From Spirochaetia bacterium (GTDB taxonomy: Bacteria; Spirochaetota; Spirochaetia; Sphaerochaetales; Sphaerochaetaceae): a DNA stretch of 64,000 bases. Below the pieces are notes generated by a model. The model ran no database searches, had not been told where the DNA came from, and saw nothing but the letters and a program-made list of their open reading frames with translations. The DNA lies in contig JAKVOU010000001.1 of assembly GCA_022482625.1 (NCBI GenBank), positions 310,001 to 374,000 on the forward strand. The letters are read 5' to 3'. This document shows positions 9,389 through 63,938 of this stretch, in pieces; positions within the stretch are counted from its first letter, which is position 1; every line of letters begins with the position of its first letter. Made by a program: the position numbers and the translations under genes.

Positions 9389-9937
9389 CTACTTTTCATT
9401 CAAAGCCAGCAGATATGGCCTAAGACGGTTTGGTACGCTTGCTATCAGGAGTGATACGATTTGATCAATCGTTTCTTCCAAATACCCTGTAAGCCACCTG
9501 ACGGTCATGTAAATTGAACCTTCGCAATACATTTCCAAGAGAAAACGCAGATCTTCAGGCAAAGGCCTCTGAAGTTGTTTTTCTATGGCCTTTGTATAAA
9601 AACTATAGATCATCCTATAGTCGTATTGCTTCAGATTTTCGCTATCCTGTGACCGAAAGGCCTGGCTGAAAAAGGGCTTTTCATTTTCGAGGAAACTAAA
9701 CTTTTCATGCAAGGCTTCCCTGAGGGTCAGGGATACTCCCATAAGAAGGAAACTCTTGTCGCATAATTGTCGGAAATACCAGTTGACCAGTTCATACTTA
9801 TCCTTGAAATGCCGATAGAAAGTCTGTCGTGAAACTTGGCATTCATGACAAATATCACAGACTGTAATCCTATCCAATGACCTTTGTTTCATGAGTTTTT
9901 TTATTCCTAATGCCAATAATATCTTAGTATCTTCCAT
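9389..9937 (-). CDS. TetR/AcrR-family transcriptional regulator
   Basis: 182 residues. The N-terminal TetR HTH spans about 9-50: Ile-Thr-Val-Cys-Asp-Ile-Cys, then the recognition segment Val-Ser-Arg-Gln-Thr-Phe-Tyr-Arg-His-Phe-Lys-Asp-Lys-Tyr-Glu-Leu. The C-terminal part resembles the DhaS-like subgroup that lacks a classical drug-binding pocket. It is divergent from the fucO-like gene, 150 bp away, and a large inverted repeat lies between them, so it probably controls that gene and itself. Its end is 3 nt from the end of convergent rnhA. Confidence 0.88.
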   Translation of the reverse strand: MEDTKILLALGIKKLMKQRSLDRITVCDICHECQVSRQTFYRHFKDKYELVNWYFRQLCDKSFLLMGVSLTLREALHEKFSFLENEKPFFSQAFRSQDSENLKQYDYRMIYSFYTKAIEKQLQRPLPEDLRFLLEMYCEGSIYMTVRWLTGYLEETIDQIVSLLIASVPNRLRPYLLALNEK

Positions 9938-10087: not shown

Positions 10088-11236
10088 ATGACAAGAAGAT
10101 TTACATTGAATGAGACATCCTATCATGGAAAAGGCTGCATTGCCGCCATTGTCGATGAAATCCAAGGGCGGGGGTTCAGGAAAGCTTTAATTTGTTCTGA
10201 TCCAGGACTTTTCAAGTTCAAGGTCGCTACCAAAGTCTGTGACCTGCTTGACCATGCCGGATTTCCCTATGAAATCTATTCAGGCATCAAGCCTAATCCT
10301 ACCATCAGCAATGTCCAGGAAGGAGTCGAAGCTTTCAAGAAAAGCGGTGCTGATCACATTATTGCAATTGGAGGAGGTTCTTCGATAGACACGGCAAAAG
10401 CAATCGGTATCATCGTGAACAACCCCGAATGTGCAGATGTCCGTTCGCTTGAAGGTGTTTCACCGACAAAGAACAGATGTGTTCCTATAATTGCTGTCCC
10501 GACTACGGCAGGGACAGCAGCTGAAGTGACTATCAACTACGTGATTACAGATCCGGAACGTCAACGAAAGTTCGTTTGTGTCGATCCTAAGGATATACCG
10601 ATCATTGCAGTAGTCGATCCGGATATGATGTCCGGTATGCCCAAGGGACTGACTGCATCAACAGGTATGGATGCATTGACCCATGCCATTGAAGGCTATA
10701 CCACCAAAGGAGCTTGGGAACTTTCGGATATGTTCCATATAAAGGCAATTGAAATCATTGCCAGATCATTGAAAGGTGCCGTAGATGGAACGGATGACGG
10801 GAGGGAAGGCATGGCTCTGGGACAATACATCGCAGGCATGGGTTTCTCCAATGTAGGCCTTGGTATTGACCATGCCATGGCACATCCTCTCAGTGCGTTC
10901 TATGATACGCCCCATGGTGTTGCCTGTGCGATACTGCTCCCGACCAGCATGAAATATAATGCTGAATATTCAGGGGAAAAGTATCGTGAGATTGCCCGTG
11001 TGTTTGGTATACCTGGAGTCGATGCCATGTCTCCGGCTGCATATCGTGAGGCCGCTATTGACGCTGTCCAACAACTTGGACTAAGTGTCGGCATCCCAGC
11101 GGATCTCAAGGGCATTGTCAAGGAAAAGGATATTGATTTCCTTGCAAAAAGTGCACATGCAGATGCTTGTTTCCCAGGAAATCCCAGAGATGCAAGTATT
11201 GAGGATATCAAGGAACTCTACCATTCGTTGATTTGA
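10088..11236 (+). CDS. fucO: Iron-containing alcohol dehydrogenase, lactaldehyde reductase type
   Basis: 382 residues, full group III ADH length. The NAD-binding motif is Gly-Gly-Gly-Ser-Ser-Ile-Asp-Thr-Ala-Lys near 97-106; Pro-Thr-Thr-Ala-Gly-Thr near 139; metal-binding residues sit in Gly-Met-Asp-Ala-Leu-Thr-His-Ala-Ile-Glu and in His-Ala-Met-Ala-His-Pro-Leu...Pro-His-Gly-Val-Ala near 263-278. The segment Gly-Met-Gly-Phe-Ser-Asn-Val-Gly-Leu-Gly-Ile matches FucO closely. FucO reduces L-lactaldehyde to 1,2-propanediol with NADH, and paralogues act on other short aldehydes. It is probably regulated by the divergent TetR. Confidence 0.85.
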   Translation: MTRRFTLNETSYHGKGCIAAIVDEIQGRGFRKALICSDPGLFKFKVATKVCDLLDHAGFPYEIYSGIKPNPTISNVQEGVEAFKKSGADHIIAIGGGSSIDTAKAIGIIVNNPECADVRSLEGVSPTKNRCVPIIAVPTTAGTAAEVTINYVITDPERQRKFVCVDPKDIPIIAVVDPDMMSGMPKGLTASTGMDALTHAIEGYTTKGAWELSDMFHIKAIEIIARSLKGAVDGTDDGREGMALGQYIAGMGFSNVGLGIDHAMAHPLSAFYDTPHGVACAILLPTSMKYNAEYSGEKYREIARVFGIPGVDAMSPAAYREAAIDAVQQLGLSVGIPADLKGIVKEKDIDFLAKSAHADACFPGNPRDASIEDIKELYHSLI

Positions 11237-51576: not shown

Positions 51577-51600
51577 ATGGACCTGTAAAAACAGGTCCAT
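51577..51600. terminator. Hairpin after rnz, probable terminator
   Basis: ATGGACCTG (51577-51585) pairs perfectly with CAGGTCCAT (51592-51600) over a TAAAAA loop. The T-run is weak (AATTTTG). Confidence 0.7.
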
Positions 51601-51720: not shown

Positions 51721-51860
51721 TAACCAAAAAATTTGTTCCAATTTTTGGATTATAATCTTGATATGCAATTTGTGTATTTTTTAATAAAATGATAATTATT
51801 TTATTTATAAGCAGTTAAATTAATCCAAAAATATCTTGATTAATCCAAAAAATTGGTTTA
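51721..51860. promoter_or_regulatory. Cluster of TAAtCCAA operator-like repeats upstream of the LacI-headed operon
   Basis: A 12-bp element occurs four times: TAACCAAAAAAT at 51721, TAATCCAAAAAT inverted at 51741-51752, the same direct at 51821-51832, and TAATCCAAAAAA at 51841-51852. The last is followed by TTGGTTTA (51853-51860), making an 8-4-8 palindrome. Within each pair the starts are 20 bp apart and the pairs are 100 bp apart, as in looping operators. The palindrome lies in the promoter spacer. The stretch 51601-51720 holds nothing else I can name. Confidence 0.6.
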
Positions 51861-51864
51861 TTCT
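51836..51864 (+). promoter_or_regulatory. Putative promoter of the LacI-pfk-fba-tim operon
   Basis: TTGATT (51836-51841), 17-nt spacer, TATTCT (51859-51864). The spacer is almost entirely the operator-like palindrome, so a bound repressor would block RNA polymerase. Confidence 0.6.
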
Positions 51865-51928: not shown

Positions 51929-52960
51929 ATGGCAGCAGTAAAACTCAAGGACATTGCAAAAGAGGCAAAACTTTCCATTTCTACGGTTTCACGTATACTT
52001 TCCGGAGATACCTCCCGTAAGGCAAATGTACAGACTGTCGAAAGGGTTATGCAGATTGCAAAGGACCTAGGATACTTCGATGCCCAAGTGAAAAAAATTT
52101 CCGCCAATACTGCAAAGACACCCATCAATGTCGGCTGTGTATTTACCTCAGATCATGAATCATTCGTTTCACCGTTCTTTTCCCAGATACTTCTTGGTAT
52201 TCAGGAAGAACTTCAGAAAGCTGAAACACAGTTTGACTGCCGTTTCTATACTTTCAATCTGACTGAATCCGGTTTTGCAGGAGCTCTTGAAGATATACAT
52301 CTGGATGGTGCCATTATCCTGGGAAGGACCAGCTTGGATACTGTTTCCAAATTGAAGCGTACGATTCCAGATATCGTCTATTGCGGTATCAATTCCATGA
52401 ACCAAGGTATTGACGAGGTAACCTGCAGTGCCTACCAGGGAGTCAGGGATGAAATTACCTATCTCTATGGACTTGGGCACCATGAAATAGGATACATAGG
52501 ACCTACGGACAAACAGCAACAAGTATTCAATGAGCATAGATATCGGGGATATATAGATGGACTGTCTGCCTGCGGACTGGTTTTTGATGGCCGTTTTGTC
52601 GAAGACTGTTACCTGTCTGCCGCCGACGGCTACAACGGACTGAAACACATGTACGGATCCACAGGGCTTCCATCAGCATTGATCTGTGCCAACGATGCCG
52701 TAGCGATGGGTGTACTCAGGGCAGCCGGAGAACTTGGGATATCTGTTCCTGATCGCCTTTCATTGGTAGGTTTTGACAATGTCGAAGCTGCTGCCTTTAC
52801 ACGTCCGTCTCTTACTACCGTTGATGTTCCAAAGCTGGAATTGGGACACGTTGCAGTCAAGATACTGCTTGACCGGATACATGGCGGACATGTCTCCCAA
52901 CTGAACGTACAAATTCCTTTTTCCCTCGTGGAACGTGAATCTTGTCTAAGGAGAATATAA
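51929..52960 (+). CDS. LacI-family transcriptional regulator
   Basis: 343 residues from ATG 51929 (AGAGGA upstream); the frame extends to 51836 without a start of quality. The LacI HTH is near 4-25 (Leu-Lys-Asp-Ile-Ala-Lys-Glu-Ala...Ser-Ile-Ser-Thr-Val-Ser-Arg-Ile-Leu), followed by a periplasmic-binding-protein-like sensor: Val-Gly-Cys-Val-Phe, Asp-Gly-Ala-Ile-Ile-Leu-Gly-Arg near 122, and Cys-Ala-Asn-Asp-Ala-Val-Ala-Met-Gly near 256. It probably binds the sugar or sugar phosphate handled downstream. Its stop overlaps the kinase start, so the regulator is autoregulated with its operon. Confidence 0.92.
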   Translation: MAAVKLKDIAKEAKLSISTVSRILSGDTSRKANVQTVERVMQIAKDLGYFDAQVKKISANTAKTPINVGCVFTSDHESFVSPFFSQILLGIQEELQKAETQFDCRFYTFNLTESGFAGALEDIHLDGAIILGRTSLDTVSKLKRTIPDIVYCGINSMNQGIDEVTCSAYQGVRDEITYLYGLGHHEIGYIGPTDKQQQVFNEHRYRGYIDGLSACGLVFDGRFVEDCYLSAADGYNGLKHMYGSTGLPSALICANDAVAMGVLRAAGELGISVPDRLSLVGFDNVEAAAFTRPSLTTVDVPKLELGHVAVKILLDRIHGGHVSQLNVQIPFSLVERESCLRRI

Positions 52961-54135
52961 TGGGTGATTTGTTGCTTATACACGGAGGTGCACCGACTGC
53001 GGTCATAAACTCTTCCTTGTACGGGGCTATCTGCGAAGCAAGGCATTCGAAGGAAATTTCGCACATACTTGCCTCTCGGGCCGGTATAGCAGGACTTTGG
53101 TCCAATCGTTTCATTGACCTTACTGATATACCCCAGTCCAGGCTGGAGTTGCTGAAATCGACCCCAGGATCTGCCATTGGTACAGGACGAGACCATCTTG
53201 AACCGGAAGATTATGAAAAATTGGCAGAGTTGCTGGAAAAACGCAAGATTTCCTATGTGCTGATGACAGGTGGCAATGGCACGATGGATACCTGCAGGAA
53301 ACTTTCGCAGGCCTGTGCTCCCCGGGGAATTGTAGTCGACGGCATTCCTAAGACCATGGACAATGACCTTGAAGGGACCGACCATAGCCCCGGTTATCCA
53401 TCTGCTGCCCGCTTTATTGCCGGTTCCGTCAAGGAAGTTGCCCAGGATGTGAAAGGTCTTGCAATCCATGTCGTCGTCATTGAGACATTCGGACGTGATG
53501 CCGGTTGGATTACCGCATCAAGTGCCTTGGCCCGGGAAAACCCTGGTGATGCCCCCCATATGATCCTTTATCCTGAAATACCCTTTGATGAAGCAAAATT
53601 TCTCAAACGGGTCAAGGAATTGTTTGAAAAGAATGGGGAAGTAGTCGTCGTTGCCAGCGAAGGTCTGCGTTATGCTGACGGTACACCTATAGTGGAACCT
53701 GTCTTTAGCGTAGGCAGGAGCGTCTACTTCGGAGATGTCGCTGCCTATCTGTCACAATTGATCATGAAGAAGCTTGGTATCAAGGCACGGAACGAAAAAC
53801 CCGGTATCCTCGGTCGGGCTTCAGGCATGTGGGCAAGTGAAATTGACAAAGAAGAAGCCATTGCATGCGGAAGAAAAGCTGTCCAGCTTGTCCTTCAAGG
53901 CAAGCAGGCATATATGCCGGTAATCCACCGCATCAGTACTGATCCCTATCAGAGTGTCGTTGATGCCGTACCGATTGATGACAGTGTACTGCAAGCCAAG
54001 GCAATGCCTGCAGCTTATCTGGATCCCGATACCTATGATGTCAATGATGCATTCGTTGACTGGCTGAGACCTTTGATAAAACCGGAATTGCCGTCCTATG
54101 TTTCATTCTTGGACGATAAGGAGATAAAAAGATGA
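52960..54135 (+). CDS. Divergent phosphofructokinase-family kinase
   Basis: 391 residues; ATG 52960 with AAGGAG upstream. PFK fold: Gly-Gly-Ala-Pro-Thr-Ala-Val-Ile-Asn near 9, Gly-Gly-Asn-Gly-Thr at 104-108, Pro-Lys-Thr-Met-Asp-Asn-Asp at 130-136, Glu-Thr-Phe-Gly-Arg-Asp-Ala-Gly-Trp at 175-183. Against the E. coli enzyme: Gly at 107 (ATP-type position 104) is kept; Lys at 131 is the PPi-type residue; the Mg-binding Asp103 is Asn (106); and the Met of Met-Gly-Arg, which contacts fructose 6-phosphate, is Phe (177). The catalytic Asp (D134) is present. The phosphate donor and sugar are therefore uncertain; a ketose phosphate other than F6P is quite possible. Coupled to the aldolase gene. Confidence 0.85.
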   Translation: MGDLLLIHGGAPTAVINSSLYGAICEARHSKEISHILASRAGIAGLWSNRFIDLTDIPQSRLELLKSTPGSAIGTGRDHLEPEDYEKLAELLEKRKISYVLMTGGNGTMDTCRKLSQACAPRGIVVDGIPKTMDNDLEGTDHSPGYPSAARFIAGSVKEVAQDVKGLAIHVVVIETFGRDAGWITASSALARENPGDAPHMILYPEIPFDEAKFLKRVKELFEKNGEVVVVASEGLRYADGTPIVEPVFSVGRSVYFGDVAAYLSQLIMKKLGIKARNEKPGILGRASGMWASEIDKEEAIACGRKAVQLVLQGKQAYMPVIHRISTDPYQSVVDAVPIDDSVLQAKAMPAAYLDPDTYDVNDAFVDWLRPLIKPELPSYVSFLDDKEIKR

Positions 54136-55289
54136 GCTTGATACCGATGCGTCCTATTTTGGAAGCGGCTGACAGGCATATGTATGGGAACGGAGCATTC
54201 AACATGAATGCATTCTGTCAGATTGAAGCTGCCTTGGAAGTACACAGGATGTTGGGTTCACCAGCCATCCTGCAAGGTGCAGACCTTGCAAATGGATTTA
54301 TGGGTGGCAGGATGGATTTTCAGAATTCTACCTTGGAAGACAAGAAGAAGGGAGCAACCAACATTGCACAGGCAGTAAAAGCAGCTGTTGCAAAATATGA
54401 TGTGCCCGTCTGTCTTCATCTTGACCATGGCAAGAATATCGATAGCGTAAAGGCAGCGATAGCCGGCGGCTATACTTCAGTCATGATTGACGGTTCATCC
54501 TTGCCTTTTGCACAAAACGTTGAACTGACAAGGGAAGTCGTCAAATTGGCACATCCGCTGGGAATAACCGTAGAAGGGGAGCTAGGGGTACTGGCTGGGA
54601 TTGAGGATGATGTATTCTCCCAGACGAGTACCTATACCAATCCCTTGGATGCCATCAGGTTCTTCAAGGAAACGAAGGTTGACGCCCTTGCAATAAGCTA
54701 TGGAACAAAACACGGTGCAAACAAGGGAAAAGATACGGTAATACGGAAGGAAATCGCAATCGCAGTAAAGGAGTGCATGCTCCATGAGCATATCGACGGC
54801 TTCTTGGTTTCCCATGGTTCTTCCCTTGTTCCGCAGTATATAGTCAATGAAATAAACGGTCTTGGCGGAACCATCGGAAATGCCCATGGAATTGCCATCG
54901 GACAGCTACAGCAGGTAATTTCCTGCGGTATCAACAAAATCAATGTAGATACCGATATCAGATTGGTCGTGACACGGAACCTGAGGGAACTGTTTGCCTG
55001 CAAACCAGATCTCATGCAGATGCCTACGACCTCATCCATATGGAAACTTATGGAAAAGGATCCAAGCAACTTTGACCCGAGATACTATCTTGTTCCCATC
55101 ATGGACACGCTTATGTATGGTATGGTTTCTGATGCACAGACCAAGACTGTAGTTGAGGCAGTGAAGGCTGGAGTCAAGGAAATCCTTGCAATATTGATCG
55201 TACAGTTCGGAAGTTACGGAAAGATGCCGCTTGTTGAACAGACCAGTCTTGAAGAAATGGCAGAAAAGTATAAAAAGGAAGGAATCTGA
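54132..55289 (+). CDS. Class II (zinc) fructose-bisphosphate-type aldolase
   Basis: 385 residues, longer than the usual 280-310. Zinc and substrate residues: His-Leu-Asp-His-Gly-Lys near 96-101, Glu-Gly-Glu-Leu-Gly near 148, Ser-Tyr-Gly-Thr-Lys-His-Gly near 190-196, Val-Ser-His-Gly-Ser near 233, Lys-Ile-Asn-Val-Asp-Thr-Asp near 275. The excess lies mainly near the C-terminus (about 315-365), before Phe-Gly-Ser-Tyr-Gly-Lys-Met. This family cleaves ketose 1,6-bisphosphates (fructose or tagatose) to DHAP and an aldehyde. Start overlaps the kinase stop (ATGA) and its stop overlaps the TIM start, so kinase, aldolase and isomerase are made together. Confidence 0.9.
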   Translation: MSLIPMRPILEAADRHMYGNGAFNMNAFCQIEAALEVHRMLGSPAILQGADLANGFMGGRMDFQNSTLEDKKKGATNIAQAVKAAVAKYDVPVCLHLDHGKNIDSVKAAIAGGYTSVMIDGSSLPFAQNVELTREVVKLAHPLGITVEGELGVLAGIEDDVFSQTSTYTNPLDAIRFFKETKVDALAISYGTKHGANKGKDTVIRKEIAIAVKECMLHEHIDGFLVSHGSSLVPQYIVNEINGLGGTIGNAHGIAIGQLQQVISCGINKINVDTDIRLVVTRNLRELFACKPDLMQMPTTSSIWKLMEKDPSNFDPRYYLVPIMDTLMYGMVSDAQTKTVVEAVKAGVKEILAILIVQFGSYGKMPLVEQTSLEEMAEKYKKEGI

Positions 55290-56149
55290 TGCAACATATT
55301 GCAGTGAATTTCAAAAGATTTGACGTACCTGCAGTACAGGGAGGCGTCAATAGGCTTGGAAAAATTGAGGATTTTTCAAAAATCATCATTGAACGTACAC
55401 TAGCTGAACTTGAGCAATACGACTGCACTGCAGTCGGCTTTTCCCAATATTATCCCGAGGCTCAGCTACCGACTGCAGTCAAGGCTGTAGGTAGCTCAAA
55501 GGCTCTTGCTATCGGTTGTCAGGGGGTATACCGGGCAGACATTGCACCAGGTGGCAATTTCGGAGCTTTTACAACCAACCGTCCAGCAGCAGCGGCCGTT
55601 GCCTTAGGTTGCAGCACAACTATCATCGGACACTGTGAAGAGCGCAATGACAAGAATGAATTGTTGGCCTTGGGAGGAAACAAGGACCGTAAGCTTGTAA
55701 ACACCATTTTCAACAAGGAAATCATCTGTGCACAAAAGCAGGGAATGGACGTATTGTACTGCATCGGTGAGAAGGCAGAAGAAACAGATGATTGGCAGGC
55801 CGTTTTGACTGAACAGATCCAAGTAGGGTTGGATGGTTGTAATCTTTCCAAGATTATCATCGCATATGAACCTGTATGGTCTATAGGTCCTGGTAAAGTA
55901 CCTGCTGACAAGCCATATATCACGAAGGTCGCCAAGCTTATCAAGAAAGTGGCTGGCAAGGATATGCCTGTCATCTACGGCGGAGGCCTGAAGAAGGACA
56001 ATGCTGCCATGCTTGCCTCAATCGACGAAATTGACGGTGGGTTGATAGCATTGACTCGCTTCTCAGGCGATTTCGGCTTCTATCCTGATGAATACCTGGA
56101 AATAGTACGGCTTTACCTTGAAGGAAAGGGTATCAAAGCAAGAACCTGA
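55289..56149 (+). CDS. Triosephosphate isomerase family protein
   Basis: 286 residues (ordinary TpiA ~250). The catalytic set is complete: Lys in Asn-Phe-Lys-Arg near 9 (usually Asn-Trp-Lys), His in Ile-Gly-His-Cys-Glu-Glu-Arg near 115, Glu in Tyr-Glu-Pro-Val-Trp near 193, loop-6 Ser-Ile-Gly-Pro-Gly-Lys, and Tyr-Gly-Gly-Gly near 230 in place of Tyr-Gly-Gly-Ser. The substitutions place it in a specialised subgroup; relatives include erythrulose-phosphate isomerases. It may interconvert triose phosphates released by the upstream aldolase, or isomerise a tetrulose phosphate. Confidence 0.88.
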   Translation: MQHIAVNFKRFDVPAVQGGVNRLGKIEDFSKIIIERTLAELEQYDCTAVGFSQYYPEAQLPTAVKAVGSSKALAIGCQGVYRADIAPGGNFGAFTTNRPAAAAVALGCSTTIIGHCEERNDKNELLALGGNKDRKLVNTIFNKEIICAQKQGMDVLYCIGEKAEETDDWQAVLTEQIQVGLDGCNLSKIIIAYEPVWSIGPGKVPADKPYITKVAKLIKKVAGKDMPVIYGGGLKKDNAAMLASIDEIDGGLIALTRFSGDFGFYPDEYLEIVRLYLEGKGIKART

Positions 56150-56226
56150 CCGATTAGGCAACATCCTTTTGAAGAAATTCTCGAAGATTAAACAGGCGTA
56201 TCATAGGAAACGCCAAGGAGTGTAAG

Positions 56227-57687
56227 ATGAAATTAAGTTTTGAGTATGGCAAAGGCATGATGGATGCACAGCTTCCTGATTACATGGATGTGTTCGTACC
56301 GGGAGAGACCGTTGCTGATCCTCCGTATATTCCTGAGGACAAACTTGAGGAAGAGACGTTGAAAAGCCTACGCAATCCAATAGGAATGCCACCTCTTACC
56401 GAACTTGCGCACAAAGGGAGCAAATGTGTCATTGTATTTCCAGACAGGGTCAAAGGTGGTGAACAGCCGACCAGCCATAGAAAGATTGCAATCAAACTTA
56501 TTCTTAAGGAACTATATAGTGTCGGAGTAGAAAAGAAGGACATTCTCCTGATTTGTTCAAACGGCCTGCATAGAAAAAATACCGAAACAGAAATTCATAA
56601 TGTGCTGGGAGATGAAATTTTCAACGAATTCTGGCCATCAGGGCAGATCATCAACCACGACAGTGAAGATTATGACCATATCGTCAACCTTGGAACTACG
56701 AAACGAGGAGATCCGGTCTGGTTGAACAAGTATGTCTATGATGCTGATGTTGCTATCCTTATCGGACATACCATGGGTAATCCCTACGGTGGCTATTCCG
56801 GTGGCTACAAGCACTGTGCAACAGGACTTAACCACTGGACCAGCATTGCTTCCCATCACGTACCGTCGGTCATGCATCGTCCTGATTTTACTCCTGTAAA
56901 CGGAAAAAGCCTCATGAGACATAAATTCGATGAAATTGGCATGAAGCAGGAAGAAGGTATGGGAAAAAAGTTTTTCTGCTGTGATGCAGTCCTTGATACG
57001 AAATCCAGGCAAATTGAAATCAACAGCGGCTATGCCAAGCTTATGCAGCCGAAGAGCTGGATTACTGCTGACAAGAGGACCTATGTCCATTGGGCAGAAA
57101 AAAAGTACGATGTAATTGTGTTCGGAATGCCGCAGTTCTTCCATTACGGTGATGGTATGGGAACAAATCCCATCATGCTGATGCAGGCACTGTCTGCCCA
57201 GGTCATCAGGCATAAACGGATCATGAGTGACCATTGTGTCATCATCTGTTCATCAATATGTGATGGCAACTTCCATGAGGAACTATGGCCTTATACCCCC
57301 GAGATGTACGAAGTATTCCAGAACCAAGGCAATATCCTTCCTGATATAAACGAAATCGGCAAATCTTTTGCCGAACGTCCTGATTATATCGAGAAGTATC
57401 GCTTCGAACATGCATTCCATCCGTTCCATGGTTTCTCAATGATCAGCTGTGGGCATATAGCGGAGATGGACACCAGTGCAATCTACCTTGTCGGTGCCCA
57501 GAAACCTGGATATGCAAGAGGTATGGGGCTGAAGACCCGTGCGACATTTGAAGAAGCTCTTGAGGATGCTAAGAAGAAGTATGTCGGACCTCATCCGAAC
57601 ATCCTTGCGCTTCCGAGGACTTTCACGACCGGTGCGGTACATCTTTGTATGAAGGATAATCCCGATATCGGACCTGTGTTAGAGTAA
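56227..57687 (+). CDS. LarA-family (nickel-pincer) 2-hydroxyacid racemase/epimerase homologue
   Basis: 486 residues; AAGGAG before ATG 56227. The LarA pattern is clear: Gly-Leu-His-Arg (H115, equivalent to LarA His108), Ser-Gly-Gly-Tyr-Lys (K195, the lysine that carries the pincer cofactor, LarA Lys184), and His210/211 (LarA His200). LarA His174, ten residues before the Lys, is Asn185 here, as can happen in homologues acting on other substrates. The family epimerises C2 of hydroxyacids including lactate, malate and gluconate. Cofactor genes larB, larC, larE are not in this window. It follows the TIM gene by 77 bp and likely acts on an acid of the same pathway. Confidence 0.82.
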   Translation: MKLSFEYGKGMMDAQLPDYMDVFVPGETVADPPYIPEDKLEEETLKSLRNPIGMPPLTELAHKGSKCVIVFPDRVKGGEQPTSHRKIAIKLILKELYSVGVEKKDILLICSNGLHRKNTETEIHNVLGDEIFNEFWPSGQIINHDSEDYDHIVNLGTTKRGDPVWLNKYVYDADVAILIGHTMGNPYGGYSGGYKHCATGLNHWTSIASHHVPSVMHRPDFTPVNGKSLMRHKFDEIGMKQEEGMGKKFFCCDAVLDTKSRQIEINSGYAKLMQPKSWITADKRTYVHWAEKKYDVIVFGMPQFFHYGDGMGTNPIMLMQALSAQVIRHKRIMSDHCVIICSSICDGNFHEELWPYTPEMYEVFQNQGNILPDINEIGKSFAERPDYIEKYRFEHAFHPFHGFSMISCGHIAEMDTSAIYLVGAQKPGYARGMGLKTRATFEEALEDAKKKYVGPHPNILALPRTFTTGAVHLCMKDNPDIGPVLE

Positions 57688-57704
57688 ATGGGTCGATCCA
57701 TGCA

Positions 57705-57734
57705 CTGTCTGCAGAAAATTTTTCCCGCAGACAG
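57705..57734 (+). terminator. Hairpin between the larA-like and tauE-like genes
   Basis: CTGTCTGC (57705-57712) pairs with GCAGACAG (57727-57734) around a 14-nt loop, followed by CAATTTTA. It may be a partial terminator; an AAGGAGG box for the next gene follows. Confidence 0.55.
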
Positions 57735-57773
57735 CAATTTTATCAGTGCAGGGACCAAGGAGGTTTGAGCTGC

Positions 57774-58499
57774 ATGTTGTATTTCTACATTGCCTTGGTC
57801 TCTGTTGCTGCTGGTTTTGTGCAGAGCAGCGGTGGGTTCGGACTTGCCATCATTACTATGGCAATCTGGACACAGTTCTTGCCTTTTATGACAGCTTCGA
57901 TCATGGAAGCCTTGATAGCAATGTTGCTGACGACTGTCATTATGATACGGAAACGTGAATATATTGACTGGAAACTGGTCCTTCCTTGTGCGGCAGCAGC
58001 AATGCTTGCTTCTTTTCCCGGTGTCAGCACATTGACGAACTTGGATGAAAAGACGTTACAGTGTATCTTAGGAAGTGTATTGATCGGCCTAGGTGTCTAT
58101 TTCCTTGTATTCAGCAAGGGAATCCGTCTTAAGCCTACGGTTACAAGCGGCATCATTGCAGGTACAGTCAGTGGATTTGCCGCAGGACTATTCAATATAG
58201 GCGGTCCTCCGATGGTAGCTTATTTCCTTTCAGTCTCAGATGACAAGGAAAAATATCATGCAACACTCCAGACCTATTTTACATTGCTTGGAATCGCTGT
58301 AATCGGGAATCATCTCCTTCAGGGGCATATAACCACCACTATCATGGGATACAGCGGAGTAGGCATGATAGGCGCGCTGTGCGGTGGTTGGTTCGGCCTG
58401 AAACTTTTTGCAAGGCTCTCTTTCCGTCGGATCAAGATTTTCATGTATGTTTTTATGATTGTCTCCGGTATTTATACCATCATAGCGGCAAATCTGTAG
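57774..58499 (+). CDS. TauE/SafE-family membrane exporter
   Basis: 241 residues. ATG 57774 has AAGGAGG upstream; a TTG at 57765 is rejected because it overlaps that box. Eight or so hydrophobic helices with two internal repeats: Ser-Ser-Gly-Gly-Phe-Gly near 18-23 and Phe-Asn-Ile-Gly-Gly-Pro-Pro near 145-151 are the paired glycine-rich motifs of TauE/SafE (DUF81). Family members export sulfite, sulfonates or other anions. Next to a sulfatase and sugar genes, export of sulfur-containing waste is plausible but unproven. Confidence 0.87.
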   Translation: MLYFYIALVSVAAGFVQSSGGFGLAIITMAIWTQFLPFMTASIMEALIAMLLTTVIMIRKREYIDWKLVLPCAAAAMLASFPGVSTLTNLDEKTLQCILGSVLIGLGVYFLVFSKGIRLKPTVTSGIIAGTVSGFAAGLFNIGGPPMVAYFLSVSDDKEKYHATLQTYFTLLGIAVIGNHLLQGHITTTIMGYSGVGMIGALCGGWFGLKLFARLSFRRIKIFMYVFMIVSGIYTIIAANL

Positions 58500-59478: not shown

Positions 59479-60690
59479 ATGAAGACTGGAAACAACCTGA
59501 CGAAGGCAAAGATGCTGAACGATGAGCTGATCAAATCGATACTATTTAAGTTCGGTCCTATTTCCAGAGGAGAGATTGCAAGTCTCCTTTCATTGACGCT
59601 TCCTACCATTACAACGAAAATCAAATCGATGCTCAAGGAAAAGCTAGTAGTTGAAGTACCGGTGCAATTCAAGGGGCAACAAAACCCCGGTCGACCTTCG
59701 CTTGCAATTGAGTATAATCCAAAGGCCCGTTATTTTTTCGGAGTGGAGAAAGCTCCATATTGCACACCAATCGTGCTATGTGATCTGAAAGGAACCTTGG
59801 TCGATTCCTGTGTCCTTGATCCCTGTGAAGATGATTATGGACGCTTTCTCAACTCTGTTGCAGATGGAATAAAAAAACTTATCAAGATGCATAATCTTTC
59901 TCAGAAAAAGATTGTCGGCATCGGCGTAGGGTTACCAGGTCTTGTAGATACCAAGGCAGGTATACTTAAGACAGGAGCTTTCAGCCATTGGCATGACAAG
60001 CCAATTGCTGAAGACCTGAACAAACTGCTGGGTTTCCCTGTGGTCATTGAAAACAATGTCAAGGCTCGGGCCATAGCAAAGGAACTGATGATTCCTTCGA
60101 TAGGCAGTGAAAGCTTTGCATACTTTTTTGTTGCCAGAGGTGTTTCCTGTCCTTTTGTACGGAGAAGTCAGATCAATGGCCTGATTTCAGTTACAAGCGG
60201 AGAAGCCGGCCACATGATCATTGAGCCTGAAGGGCCTGTCTGTCCTGTCTGCGGCAACAAAGGCTGCATTGATGCCGTTGCGTGTGACAGGATATTGCTT
60301 GATGCTTGTCGAGCTGCCATAGAAGAAAGAAAAGCTCCCTTGCTGGCGCAGATTTGTCCAGAATCGGAACAACTTACCATTGATGATATTCTCAAAGCGG
60401 AAGAGCAGGGTGATACGTTTGTCCTTACGCAGATACATCATCTACTTAGTCTGCTGAGCATCGGACTTGCAAATATCACGAATCTTATAAGTCCGCAGAC
60501 AATTTTCATTGATGCGCAGATTCTGACCCCAGTCCAGAATCAAGTGGAATTTGAGGAAATGACAAGAAAGATGATCTTTGATACCAATATCGATGCAGTA
60601 AAATTTCAGTTTCTTCCTTATGATCTGCATAGAGGTGCACACTGTGCCGCTCTGTTGGCACTTAAGGAACTGTTCATCAATGTAAATTGA
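59479..60690 (+). CDS. ROK-family transcriptional repressor
   Basis: 403 residues; GGGAG before ATG 59479. A winged HTH occupies the first ~75 residues (Ile-Ser-Arg-Gly-Glu-Ile-Ala...Thr-Leu-Pro-Thr-Ile-Thr), then a ROK sugar-binding domain: Gly-Ile-Gly-Val-Gly-Leu-Pro-Gly near 152, Gly-Glu-Ala-Gly-His-Met near 241, and the zinc motif Cys-Pro-Val-Cys-Gly-Asn-Lys-Gly-Cys-Ile-Asp near 255-265. The kinase Glu-Asn-Asp is Glu-Asn-Asn (near 195), so it is probably not a kinase. XylR/NagC-like repressor sensing a sugar; likely targets are itself and the divergent tctC/sulfatase region. Confidence 0.9.
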   Translation: MKTGNNLTKAKMLNDELIKSILFKFGPISRGEIASLLSLTLPTITTKIKSMLKEKLVVEVPVQFKGQQNPGRPSLAIEYNPKARYFFGVEKAPYCTPIVLCDLKGTLVDSCVLDPCEDDYGRFLNSVADGIKKLIKMHNLSQKKIVGIGVGLPGLVDTKAGILKTGAFSHWHDKPIAEDLNKLLGFPVVIENNVKARAIAKELMIPSIGSESFAYFFVARGVSCPFVRRSQINGLISVTSGEAGHMIIEPEGPVCPVCGNKGCIDAVACDRILLDACRAAIEERKAPLLAQICPESEQLTIDDILKAEEQGDTFVLTQIHHLLSLLSIGLANITNLISPQTIFIDAQILTPVQNQVEFEEMTRKMIFDTNIDAVKFQFLPYDLHRGAHCAALLALKELFINVN

Positions 60691-60779: not shown

Positions 60780-62543
60780 CTATTTGTATCTGCTGTTGAG
60801 AATAACAGCACGTTTTACGTTTTTCAGATGTCCTGGATCGACTGATAATTCAGTCAACTGCAGTAAATCCTCATAAGTGAGGTGAGTGCTCACAGGAAAA
60901 GTCTTTTTCAGAAGTGCGGGTAGCTGTTTGCCCCCATCCTTAAGCAGACGCTTGAGACAACAGTACATGTTGATGGCTTCCTGTGTCCAAGAATAGGCAT
61001 GGACAAGTTCCTGCTCGATACCGGAAAACTTGATCTCTTCTTTCAGAGCCCTGAGCTTCCCTACAGTCATTTGACCGTCTTTCTGCAATCCATATCGGCC
61101 ATAGAGTTCCTCAGGGGCATCAGCTTCGTAAAGCTTCTTGCTCATTTCATTGAGTAATCTGGTTTCCAATTCAGGATCGTCAATAGGAGAAAGTTGTCCT
61201 GGATCAGTTTCTGTATCAAAAAGCAAATCGCCATAATTTGTACTGTCAACAGGGCCGTCGATTCCCTTGACCTTCATTGTCTTGCATCCTTTTGTAAAGG
61301 TGAAAGGCTTTGCAAGTTCAATTTCCTGCAATTCGTCAGTACTGAAGAAATTTCTCATATGAGTCGGCATAAGCGTATACTCATAGAAATTACAATCTCT
61401 TTCCGGCGCATGCATATAGGTATACCTACCGTCGGTAATATTGATCTGCTTTCCATGATAGCCATAAAGGATATAGTCATGGACAGAACTGTCTTCTTTG
61501 ATGACAGGGACCAACGATTTGCCGTCCATTTCCTTGGGCAATGCAATGCCGAAGAAATCAAGGATGGTAGCCGGCAAATCAATTGTCTGGGTAAGGGCAC
61601 TTCTGTGTTGACCTTTCAATTTGAACCGCGGGTCATAGATAAAGAGCGGTGTCCTTGCAAGCTCATCATAAACCGGCATGCGTCCCTTGGCCCACCAACC
61701 ATGTTCACCTAGGAGATACCCATGGTCGGTATTTACGATCAGCAGGGTATCCTTCCACATGTCATGGGCATCCATGAAATCGAGGACCTTTCCAAGATAG
61801 GTATCACACATGGTAATCAAAGCCGCATAATAATTGCGTACCTGTGTGACCGTATCAGCATCTTCTGTAACAAAGTAGTAGGGAGGCCAATCAGAAACAG
61901 CAGCATCAGGTTTTATCTCAAAGGCCTTGCGATAAGCTTCCTGGGTAAAGAATGGCTCATGTGGGTCAAACGTTTCAATCTGAAGGAACCAGTTGTCCTC
62001 TGCAACATTGCGGGAAAGGAATTCAAGGCCATGCCTGAACGTAGTTGCCTGAGGCATCCTTTCTTCACTAGTGATATATTTTCTGTTGGACTGGTCCTGG
62101 AATTCTTTTTTTTCATGGTAGACAATGTCCTGCTTGCCTCGCAATTGTTCAATAAGTTCTGGATAGACTTTCCAAGGGTCGCCTTCCTGTCCTCGTGAGC
62201 ATTCCCATGAACTATATCGTGTATGATAGGTACAGCCTCCGTCTTCCCAATAGTGGTAGTGATCAGATATGAGATGGGAATAGATACCGTTTTGTTTGAG
62301 CATCTCAGGCATAGAGTTGTCATACGGTTCCATAGGGCCCCAGCTACGGTGAAGGAAATTATACCTTCCGGTATGGAGTTCTCTTCTTGCAGGCATACAG
62401 GGCATGCTGCCTACATATTGACAATCAAAGGTAAGGGAGTTGTCAGCCAATCGCTTGAAATTTGGCGTTGGAATCCAATTGCATCCGTAGGGTTCCAGCA
62501 TCCTTCTGTTAAGGGAATCAAACATTACCATTATTGCTTTCAT
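60780..62543 (-). CDS. Cytoplasmic Cys-type sulfatase
   Basis: 587 residues. ATG 62543 has GAGGAG upstream; the frame runs to 62588 without support. The formylglycine motif C49-M-P-A-R53 is followed by Glu-Leu-His-Thr-Gly-Arg; metal residues are near the start (Met-Phe-Asp-Ser-Leu-Asn) and in Asn-Thr-Asp-His-Gly-Tyr near 269-274 with Gly-Trp-Trp-Ala-Lys-Gly-Arg. No signal peptide, so the substrate must enter the cell. Maturation requires a formylglycine-generating enzyme or anaerobic maturase (not in this window). It removes sulfate, or possibly acts as a phosphonate-monoester hydrolase, a sister group. Convergent to ROK and divergent from the transporter. Confidence 0.88.
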   Translation of the reverse strand: MKAIMVMFDSLNRRMLEPYGCNWIPTPNFKRLADNSLTFDCQYVGSMPCMPARRELHTGRYNFLHRSWGPMEPYDNSMPEMLKQNGIYSHLISDHYHYWEDGGCTYHTRYSSWECSRGQEGDPWKVYPELIEQLRGKQDIVYHEKKEFQDQSNRKYITSEERMPQATTFRHGLEFLSRNVAEDNWFLQIETFDPHEPFFTQEAYRKAFEIKPDAAVSDWPPYYFVTEDADTVTQVRNYYAALITMCDTYLGKVLDFMDAHDMWKDTLLIVNTDHGYLLGEHGWWAKGRMPVYDELARTPLFIYDPRFKLKGQHRSALTQTIDLPATILDFFGIALPKEMDGKSLVPVIKEDSSVHDYILYGYHGKQINITDGRYTYMHAPERDCNFYEYTLMPTHMRNFFSTDELQEIELAKPFTFTKGCKTMKVKGIDGPVDSTNYGDLLFDTETDPGQLSPIDDPELETRLLNEMSKKLYEADAPEELYGRYGLQKDGQMTVGKLRALKEEIKFSGIEQELVHAYSWTQEAINMYCCLKRLLKDGGKQLPALLKKTFPVSTHLTYEDLLQLTELSVDPGHLKNVKRAVILNSRYK

Positions 62544-62945
62544 CAGTCGTTCTCCTCGTAGATGGTTACAATCTGATAGCTGCATCAATAAAAAAAAGAA
62601 TATCCATGTCGCTTCGGAAAGGGAAATCCGAAGTCATGCTTCACACTAACAGAAATCATTCAGCAAGTCAATCTAGAATTTATTTCCAGCTATTGAAAGG
62701 AATAGATATGCAGTTAAAAAATTTATTTTTTCTTTTGACAAAACAGTAACCTGGGGTTATCATACTTATGTAAATTTAATTAAATAAATTAAAAAAATAA
62801 AAATCTGATTGAATCCTGCATCAATCAAAAGAAGTATCTGGCCTTTACAGGGAAAAGGGAATGAGCATATGTTGCAACTCATGGAAATATAATGATAAAG
62901 CCACATATGAAGTTTTTAGCGCATCAACCAATGGAGGTTTGCAAA
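62544..62945. other. Divergent regulatory region between sulfatase and tctC
   Basis: 402 bp with no credible gene. It contains the tctC promoter (62735-62763), an A+T-rich AATTAAAT stretch (62773-62800) similar to the one before the ROK gene, and GGAGG (62935-62939) before the tctC start. The sulfatase promoter on the other strand is not obvious. Confidence 0.6.
62735..62763 (+). promoter_or_regulatory. Promoter of the tctC operon
   Basis: A consensus TTGACA (62735-62740), 17-nt spacer, TATCAT (62758-62763). The strongest-looking promoter in the window; it implies a ~175-nt leader. Confidence 0.7.
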
Positions 62946-63938
62946 ATGAAAAAGAGAGATATCTTGGCAATGATCTGCATGCTGTCAATGGCATCAGCAG
63001 TTTTCGCCAATGGCAAATCAGAGCAGCAGTCTGCTTCTGAAAGTGGAGCAGAGTGGAAACCGGATCATAATATTACCATCCGTGTACCTAATTCTGCCGG
63101 TGGCACAATGGATACCCTGAGCCGAATCTTCGCACAGGGCGTACAGAAAGAAATGGATGTACCTACCGTAGTGAAAAATGTTACAGGTGCAGCCGGTGCC
63201 CTTTGTCTCAATGACCTGAACAAATCAGATCCAAGTATCAGTGAAATGATGGCAAGTGGCATAGCCTTCTTCACATTGACTCCTCTTGTCAACAAGGATG
63301 TAAAGGTTTCATTAGATGACTATGACCCCATTGCCAGCCTTGTAAGTGAGGATTTTGTACTCTATGTTGCTCCCAAGGATACCGGTATTGAAAATTGGGA
63401 TGATTTCCTTGCCTATGCCAAGAAAAACGGCATAACAGCAGGCTGCAATGCACCTGGTGGTGCAACCCACATGCTATTCTCTGCCTTGCTGGGTGATGCA
63501 GGGATCAAATGGAATGCTGTTTCAACTGCAGGTTCAAACAAAGATTTGCTGAATCTTGTGTCAGGCAATGTCGATTGTGTCATAGCGACTGTTTCTGTAG
63601 GAAGCCAATTCGTCGAAGGTGGTATGGTCAAGCCGATTGCCTGTTTCTCGGACGCACCATTTACAGGGTTTGATAATTATACGGTTCCGACGGTATCCAG
63701 CAAAGGATATAACATCGTCTTCAAGTCCAATAATTTCATAATGGTACGTAAGGGAGTACCTCAGGATCATATTGATGCCGTGTACAACGCTTATATGGAT
63801 TACCAGAAAACTGATGAATTCAAGGCTTTGGCCCAAAAAGCAAATTTTACTCCGAATACGATGAACGGAGCGGAAATTCGTAAGAGCGTCAATGATGAAA
63901 AAGACTTTTGCCAAACTTACTATAAGAAATACTATTGA
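62946..63938 (+). CDS. TctC-family solute-binding protein of a tripartite tricarboxylate transporter
   Basis: 330 residues from ATG 62946 (GGAGG 6 nt before). Signal peptide ending Ala-Val-Phe-Ala-Asn-Gly, like the iron-type binding protein at 14.9 kb. The mature part is a Bug/TctC fold: Ile-Arg-Val-Pro-Asn-Ser-Ala-Gly-Gly-Thr-Met-Asp near 49-60 (ligand loop), Asn-Val-Thr-Gly-Ala-Ala-Gly near 79, and Gly-Gly-Ala-Thr-His-Met near 178. These proteins bind carboxylates, but also other anions and sugar acids. Next to a cytoplasmic sulfatase, the cargo may be an acidic or sulfated compound. Confidence 0.9.
   Translation: MKKRDILAMICMLSMASAVFANGKSEQQSASESGAEWKPDHNITIRVPNSAGGTMDTLSRIFAQGVQKEMDVPTVVKNVTGAAGALCLNDLNKSDPSISEMMASGIAFFTLTPLVNKDVKVSLDDYDPIASLVSEDFVLYVAPKDTGIENWDDFLAYAKKNGITAGCNAPGGATHMLFSALLGDAGIKWNAVSTAGSNKDLLNLVSGNVDCVIATVSVGSQFVEGGMVKPIACFSDAPFTGFDNYTVPTVSSKGYNIVFKSNNFIMVRKGVPQDHIDAVYNAYMDYQKTDEFKALAQKANFTPNTMNGAEIRKSVNDEKDFCQTYYKKYY

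Follow-up and report, generated by a model that had tools for sequence, protein, structure and literature searches.

The window, by which is meant the whole 64-kb stretch of DNA that was analysed, harbors a gene for a LacI-family regulator that is followed by genes running as far as a TauE/SafE exporter gene, all on the same strand and tightly spaced (Table 1). The regulator gene and the five genes downstream would form one operon. The genes at 52960-58499 constitute an unusual sugar-phosphate cluster, in which a PPi-dependent phosphofructokinase (PPi-PFK) and a class II aldolase are accompanied by TIM-like, LarA-like and TauE genes. In relatives the cluster (L051:11011-17556; L125:4654-16868) holds NagA-, NagB-, PMI- or PGI-like genes, and also an ABC transporter with an NMT1-like binding protein. 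Near the TauE gene of the window are found a sulfatase whose C-terminal domain is SGSH-like (60780-62546, minus strand) and a TctC-type receptor (62892-63938, plus strand), a pair that may point to a sugar carrying a sulfate or sulfonate group. A ROK-family protein is also encoded nearby (59479-60690). On the other side, the neighbor of the repeats described below is an RNase Z gene, after which a terminator-like hairpin (51577-51600) separates RNase Z from the lacI promoter.

Table 1. Features of the lacI locus in the window and operon-head sites found in relatives
Feature	Position	Strand	Evidence or remark
Degenerate copy TAACCAAAAAAT	51721..51732	+	-0.6 bits
O2, auxiliary operator (predicted) TTGTTCCAATTTTTGGATTA	51733..51752	.	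12.7 bits, rank 4
Half-site TAATCCAAAAAT	51821..51832	+	direct repeat; O1 follows 20 bp downstream
Putative -35, TTGATT	51836..51841	+	hexamer weight scan
O1, main operator (predicted) TAATCCAAAAAATTGGTTTA	51841..51860	.	matrix rank 1 in window; conservation upstream of orthologues
Putative -10, TATTCT	51859..51864	+	hexamer weight scan
LacI-family regulator, 343 aa	51929..52960	+	Pfam LacI HTH and periplasmic-binding-like domains; fold model
PPi-dependent phosphofructokinase-like gene, probable target	52960..54135	+	NF010675 above cut-off; PF00365
Class II fructose-bisphosphate aldolase-like gene, probable target	54132..55289	+	PF01116
TIM-like gene, probable target	55289..56149	+	PF00121; below NCBIfam cut-offs
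LarA-like gene, probable target	56227..57687	+	PF09861; below NCBIfam cut-offs
TauE/SafE exporter gene, possible target	57765..58499	+	PF01925, queried from ATG 57774
L002 operon-head site	L125:5687		25.2 bits; between divergent TIM-like gene and operon
L133 operon-head site	L045:5662		17.0 bits; flanked by divergent ORFs, of which the left one adjoins LarA
L043 operon-head site	4252		21.0 bits; 35 bp past TIM match
L132 operon-head site	L169		between ABC permease and TIM-LarA genes
L131 operon-head site	L172		between ABC permease and TIM-LarA genes

Repeats upstream of the regulator gene

The intergenic region that carries the repeats is 377 bp long with 30% G+C. A sequence-only reading had described four 12-bp copies here, one of them inverted, arranged as two 20-bp pairs lying 100 bp apart, and the letters bear this out when read directly: copy 1 (TAACCAAAAAAT) is the unit minus one T, copy 2 (ATTTTTGGATTA, 51741-51752) is inverted, and copies 3 (TAATCCAAAAAT) and 4 (TAATCCAAAAAA, 51841-51852) follow. 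The repeat unit is TAA(T)CCAAAAAW, and the start-to-start distances are 20, 80 and 20 bp. Copy 2 is the exact inverse of copy 3, the 13-mer ATTAATCCAAAAA stands unchanged at both 51819 and 51839, and the 11-mer TAATCCAAAAA is present three times in the intergenic region.

The same reading held that the last copy grows into an 8-4-8 palindrome placed between the -35 and -10 elements. This is also found, since copy 4 extends to TAATCCAA-AAAA-TTGGTTTA (51841-51860) with 7 of 8 pairs matching, and the palindrome, termed O1, occupies the spacer (17 bp) of a plausible promoter. That promoter, TTGATT-17-TATTCT, ranks top in a hexamer weight scan of the leader's final 170 bp. A stricter consensus promoter tool did not list it on the leader, because by our own count 8 of its 12 bases match and 9 are required; the putative promoter at O1 is a weak one.

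O1 lies 88 bp upstream of the regulator gene and reads as an operator with an A/T center. With a matrix built from 22 relatives, the window being left out, it scores 21.7 bits, the highest value in the 64 kb. Between O1 and O2 in this ranking are found positions 11064 (16.5 bits, inside an ORF) and 2111 (13.0 bits). O2 pairs better as an 8-3-8 arrangement (51734-51752, 2 mismatches), and as a second site it reaches p=0.010 at a distance of 108 bp from O1. Scored as full dimer sites with the same matrix, 51721 and 51821 give -0.6 and -3.7 bits respectively and therefore fail, which makes them half-sites or remnants; copy 1 was rejected as a full operator on this score. The 20- and 100-bp periodicity claimed for the array is literally true but does not represent its unit: the array consists of a strong palindrome (O1), a weaker one (O2) located 108 bp before it and, 20 bp before O1, a half-site.

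Statistics gathered within the window are modest. Any 11-mer was present three times in only 13 of 2000 dinucleotide shuffles of the intergenic region, and the window contains 4 near-copies of the repeat against 1.12 expected (at least 4 in 3 of 100 shuffles), one of which lies away from the array at 2111. An 8-4-8 palindrome with at least 7 of 8 pairs is common by chance in such A+T-rich DNA (664 of 2000 dinucleotide shuffles of the intergenic region), and at up to 3 mismatches the palindrome has a single match in the window against 0.51 expected. The array by itself is suggestive, short of proof, and the strong evidence for the sites comes from conservation across genomes.

Some of this leader is shared with a sister species, whose regulator is 66% identical to the protein of the window over residues 3-185, the part compared. 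The half-site upstream of O1 is also present there, at 21 bp, and is absent from the other 21 loci. Of the two leaders compared, the stretch with half-site and O1 is the best conserved part, with a maximum identity of 0.78 over 36 columns compared with a maximum of 0.72 in 60 shuffled alignments. The proximal site of the sister is also found in a 17-bp spacer, of a promoter that ranks only third in the hexamer scan. A MAFFT alignment, possibly steered by the motif itself, places copy 1 against the distal operator of the sister. Copy 1 is perhaps a remnant of that operator, and because of this alignment, possibly motif-steered as it is, it is suggested that one site decayed while another rose beside it.

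Conservation of the site with the regulator

A search of 139 genomes from this family gave orthologues of the regulator (E <= 1e-45) in 32, the genome of the window itself being counted. The loci of relatives were taken from the best 80 of at least 530 relatives, a ranking headed by spirochaete MAGs, some titled Sphaerochaeta, with Clostridium and Enterocloster further down. The 45 loci and the window gave 46 upstream regions, of which 36 remained after removal of 10 duplicates, judged by identity over the final 150 bases; similar but non-identical regions were kept. The palindrome TAATCCAANNNNTTGGATTA occurs with up to 2 mismatches in 15 of these 36 regions and with up to 3 in 19, the window being included each time, against shuffle means of 0.01 and 0.15 (100 shuffled sets). 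Since the loci are related, these counts are not independent.

A site was assigned in 23 of the 36 upstream regions, and these 23 entered the matrix analysis and the test for a second site. Matrix sites were picked by their likeness to the symmetrised motif of the window, with shuffles as the control; for L124 the primary site is the distal one in the matrix and the proximal one in the second-site test. Across the 22 relatives CCAA is near-invariant in each arm, and the middle four positions are almost only A or T. The operator is an even 20-bp palindrome, and at the center, where operators of this family usually carry CG, all 23 assigned sites have A/T.

No site was assigned in the remaining 13 upstream regions. 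Of these, 8 have a lacI that appears to be internal to an operon, and 5 such loci show a site at the head of the operon or of its divergent partner (Table 1). The L002 operon consists of ABC transporter, PGI-like, lacI, amidohydrolase, PFK, PMI and aldolase genes. In scans that did not all extend past 1.5 kb, no operon-head site was found for L046, L087, L135, L137, L139, L005, L006 and L152; L046 and L087 gave no strong site, L135 was scanned within its 3.6-kb locus, and L152 has a 14.8-bit site just upstream of lacI that falls short of assignment. Two loci show palindromes of other kinds. L058 (G026 orthologue L006) is without the TCCAA motif and has a perfect 20-bp palindrome, GGATTTATTG followed by CAATAAATCC, which lies about 108 bp ahead of the start of lacI and is perhaps a switched operator. 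L062, whose regulator has a non-canonical hinge, carries ACGCAAA-AG-TTTGCGT-like palindromes with a non-CG center at about 29 and 156 bp before lacI begins.

The core ATCCAAWWWWTTGGAT was also sought genome-wide, as the sequence-only reading had proposed for its motif. With zero mismatches it occurs at 14 places in 24 genomes, 13 of them at the lacI operon or a divergent partner, so that it is near-unique to these positions; the fourteenth is intragenic and lies in the genome of the window. Five genomes without an orthologue (G001, G003, G005, G020 and G024) contain no zero-mismatch core, and four of the five contain one-mismatch cores (5, 5, 1 and 1), for which a reversed-pattern control gave 5 matches in G001 and 1 in G003. 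In the genome of the window three 20-mers are found with up to 1 mismatch, namely O1 and two intragenic ones, and three with 2 mismatches (L122:7061, L128 and L129). Candidate regulon sites at L121:7600, inside an SDR gene, and L123:7088, inside the end of a glycyl-radical-enzyme gene, were rejected, and L122:7061, 53 bp upstream of a helicase ORF, was judged to be a chance match. In this genome the regulon probably consists of the lacI operon alone.

The regulator and the spacing of its sites

The N-terminal LacI-type HTH domain of the regulator matches PF00356 at 42.9 bits (cut-off 27), and the effector domain resembles periplasmic binding proteins (PF13377, 126 bits; PF00532, 65 bits). The fold model is that of a standard LacI-family chain, with a pLDDT of 88.6. 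No LacI-type tetramerisation helix was found at the C-terminus, either in the alignment to LacI or in the fold model; the alignment ends at residue 340 of the query and 330 of 360 of LacI, so that LacI runs 30 residues further and the window protein 3. The canonical hinge helix of the LacI family bears an inserting leucine. Among 36 orthologues the canonical hinge Pro or Leu is found in none and the hinge A-R/Q in one, and the fold model nonetheless predicts, at low confidence, a linker helix at residues 49-60. Membership of the LacI/GalR family is not excluded by this, because the canonical hinge is typical rather than defining. In the best 80 of at least 530 relatives, the best palindrome is CG-centered in 6 of 16 loci with a canonical hinge compared with 7 of 64 others. 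That hinge and operator center changed together is only hinted at by this comparison, because at least L056, L059 and L109 are misfiled through a wrong start and the operator need not be the best palindrome.

Once the primary site is masked, 19 of the 23 loci show a second one at p<=0.05, the exceptions being L004, L149, L053 and L054; the window, with O1 and O2, shares a GalR-like two-operator arrangement with the other loci among these 19. This count includes 25 bases into the gene, whereas DNA upstream of the start codon alone gives 11 of 23, and the combined p (4e-20) overstates the evidence because many of the loci are congeneric. The distance between the paired sites differs by lineage, being either 75-78 bp or 101-130 bp: it is 108 bp in the window, 130 bp in the sister species, 112 bp in L130 and 101 bp in L003, whereas in 15 loci the second site lies 75-78 bp downstream of the primary one, at the start codon or immediately ahead of it. 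The main site starts 27-30 bp before the predicted -35 in 17 loci, and 15 of the 17 have a second site at p<=0.05. Since the primary site precedes the -35 and the second is found at the start codon, the predicted promoter is bracketed in 15 loci.

Autorepression and alternative readings

The repeats are most likely docking sites of a LacI-type repressor on its own sugar-metabolism operon. That the copies are binding sites of the adjacent LacI-family protein, as the sequence-only reading proposed, is well supported by their conservation with the regulator and by the operon-head sites. We consider it probable, with good confidence, that the protein binds O1 between the -35 and -10 elements and autorepresses lacI and the genes behind it, with O2 and the half-site strengthening the effect and an effector releasing it. 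A dimer at O1 would fill the spacer and exclude RNA polymerase, and this exclusion would repress lacI and the downstream genes. A second dimer at O2 would raise occupancy, possibly through a GalR-like loop, and contact with the half-site at 51821 may do the same. The effector that frees the protein would probably be a sugar phosphate, since the neighboring enzymes suggest it. Simple occlusion does not apply in the 17 loci whose main site comes before the predicted -35, and for these repression by the bracket, or even activation, is possible.

Cooperative or looping repression, which had also been proposed, is supported in part: 19 of 23 loci have a second site, but the distance between the sites varies by lineage and the regulator has no tetramerisation tail. 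LacI-style tetramer looping is not supported, because this tail is missing. A loop of about 108 bp held by dimers at O1 and O2 and needed for repression, in the manner of GalR at gal, is a serious but somewhat doubtful proposition. Four loci have spacings of 101-130 bp, and the gal operators, OE at -60.5 and OI at +53.5, are 113 bp apart and are looped by dimers with HU (PMC4693257). The spacings of 75-78, 101, 108, 112 and 130 bp, however, share no common helical phase, and two independent dimers would give the same pattern. The position of the main site 27-30 bp before the predicted -35 in 17 loci is one that activators can also occupy, and the regulator could act as an activator or dual regulator at some promoters. 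This is unlikely, given that the second site is usually found at the start codon in those loci, that O1 of the window lies inside the promoter and that LacI-family regulators are mostly repressors.

The sites might instead belong to another regulator, such as the ROK-family protein encoded nearby. We regard this as very improbable: the site accompanies lacI in L053 and L054, where no other gene of the window matched, and among the 24 loci listed a ROK match is found only in L055, which is without the motif. Least credible of all is that the copies repeat by chance, or are phased A-tracts whose only effect is to bend A+T-rich DNA. The frequency of the palindrome in shuffles is what can be said for it, but the conserved letters are CC/GG and so go beyond an A-tract, conservation is far above that of shuffles and the motif is near-unique to the lacI operon; the conservation upstream of orthologues and the matrix already contradict it.

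Several known systems come close to the arrangement of the window. The E. coli lac operon has a main operator and auxiliary operators (O1-O3), and the window resembles it in having main and auxiliary operators for a protein of the same family, whereas the window protein lacks the C-terminal tail helix of LacI in the alignment and fold model. E. coli GalR at gal OE-OI is similar in that a single promoter region holds two operators separated by about 100 bp and the LacI-family protein is of the dimeric type, but the operator sequence differs, the spacing varies by lineage in relatives, and the window has O1 in the promoter spacer and O2 upstream of it with no bracketing. CcpA and PurR are the closest solved relatives by sequence and share the fold and even-palindrome operators; in contrast, the operator of the window has no central CG and its regulator lacks CcpA/PurR-type hinge residues. 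The Ravcheev survey of 1303 LacI-family regulators gives 1251 with even palindromes, among them a minority of 49 TFs whose center is a pair other than CG and 29 that are degenerate, and lists GalR motifs among the odd palindromes, whereas the palindrome of the window is even (PMC4052901). By class, the operator of the window resembles the non-CG even palindromes of the survey (PMC4052901).

The switch is fairly ordinary, and its unusual traits are the A/T-centered operator and the lineage-dependent geometry of the pair. A search of the open literature returned no paper on the LacI-family clade of this regulator. We tentatively propose, at a little short of an even chance, that a LacI-family subgroup found in spirochaetes related to Sphaerochaeta and in a few Clostridia gave up the readout of a central CpG by the hinge leucine and reads TCCAA-(A/T)4-TTGGA in paired operators of two geometries, one genus using spacer occlusion with an upstream site and the others 75-78-bp bracketing. 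Relatives keep a second operator while its spacing and position shift and, if the proposal is true, they offer a natural series on the evolution of repression geometry while the operator itself stays the same. A/T-centered operators with non-canonical hinges likewise provide a natural test of the extent to which the hinge-CpG contact can be dispensed with, and a defined operator with a small regulon makes the effector and function of the PPi-PFK/aldolase/TIM-like/LarA-like cluster testable. An array richer than that of the window is found in a Sphaerochaeta MAG (L041:9850-9981, the same upstream as L130), where sites at 9850, 9906 and 9962 lie exactly 56 bp apart and a fourth is found at 9880.
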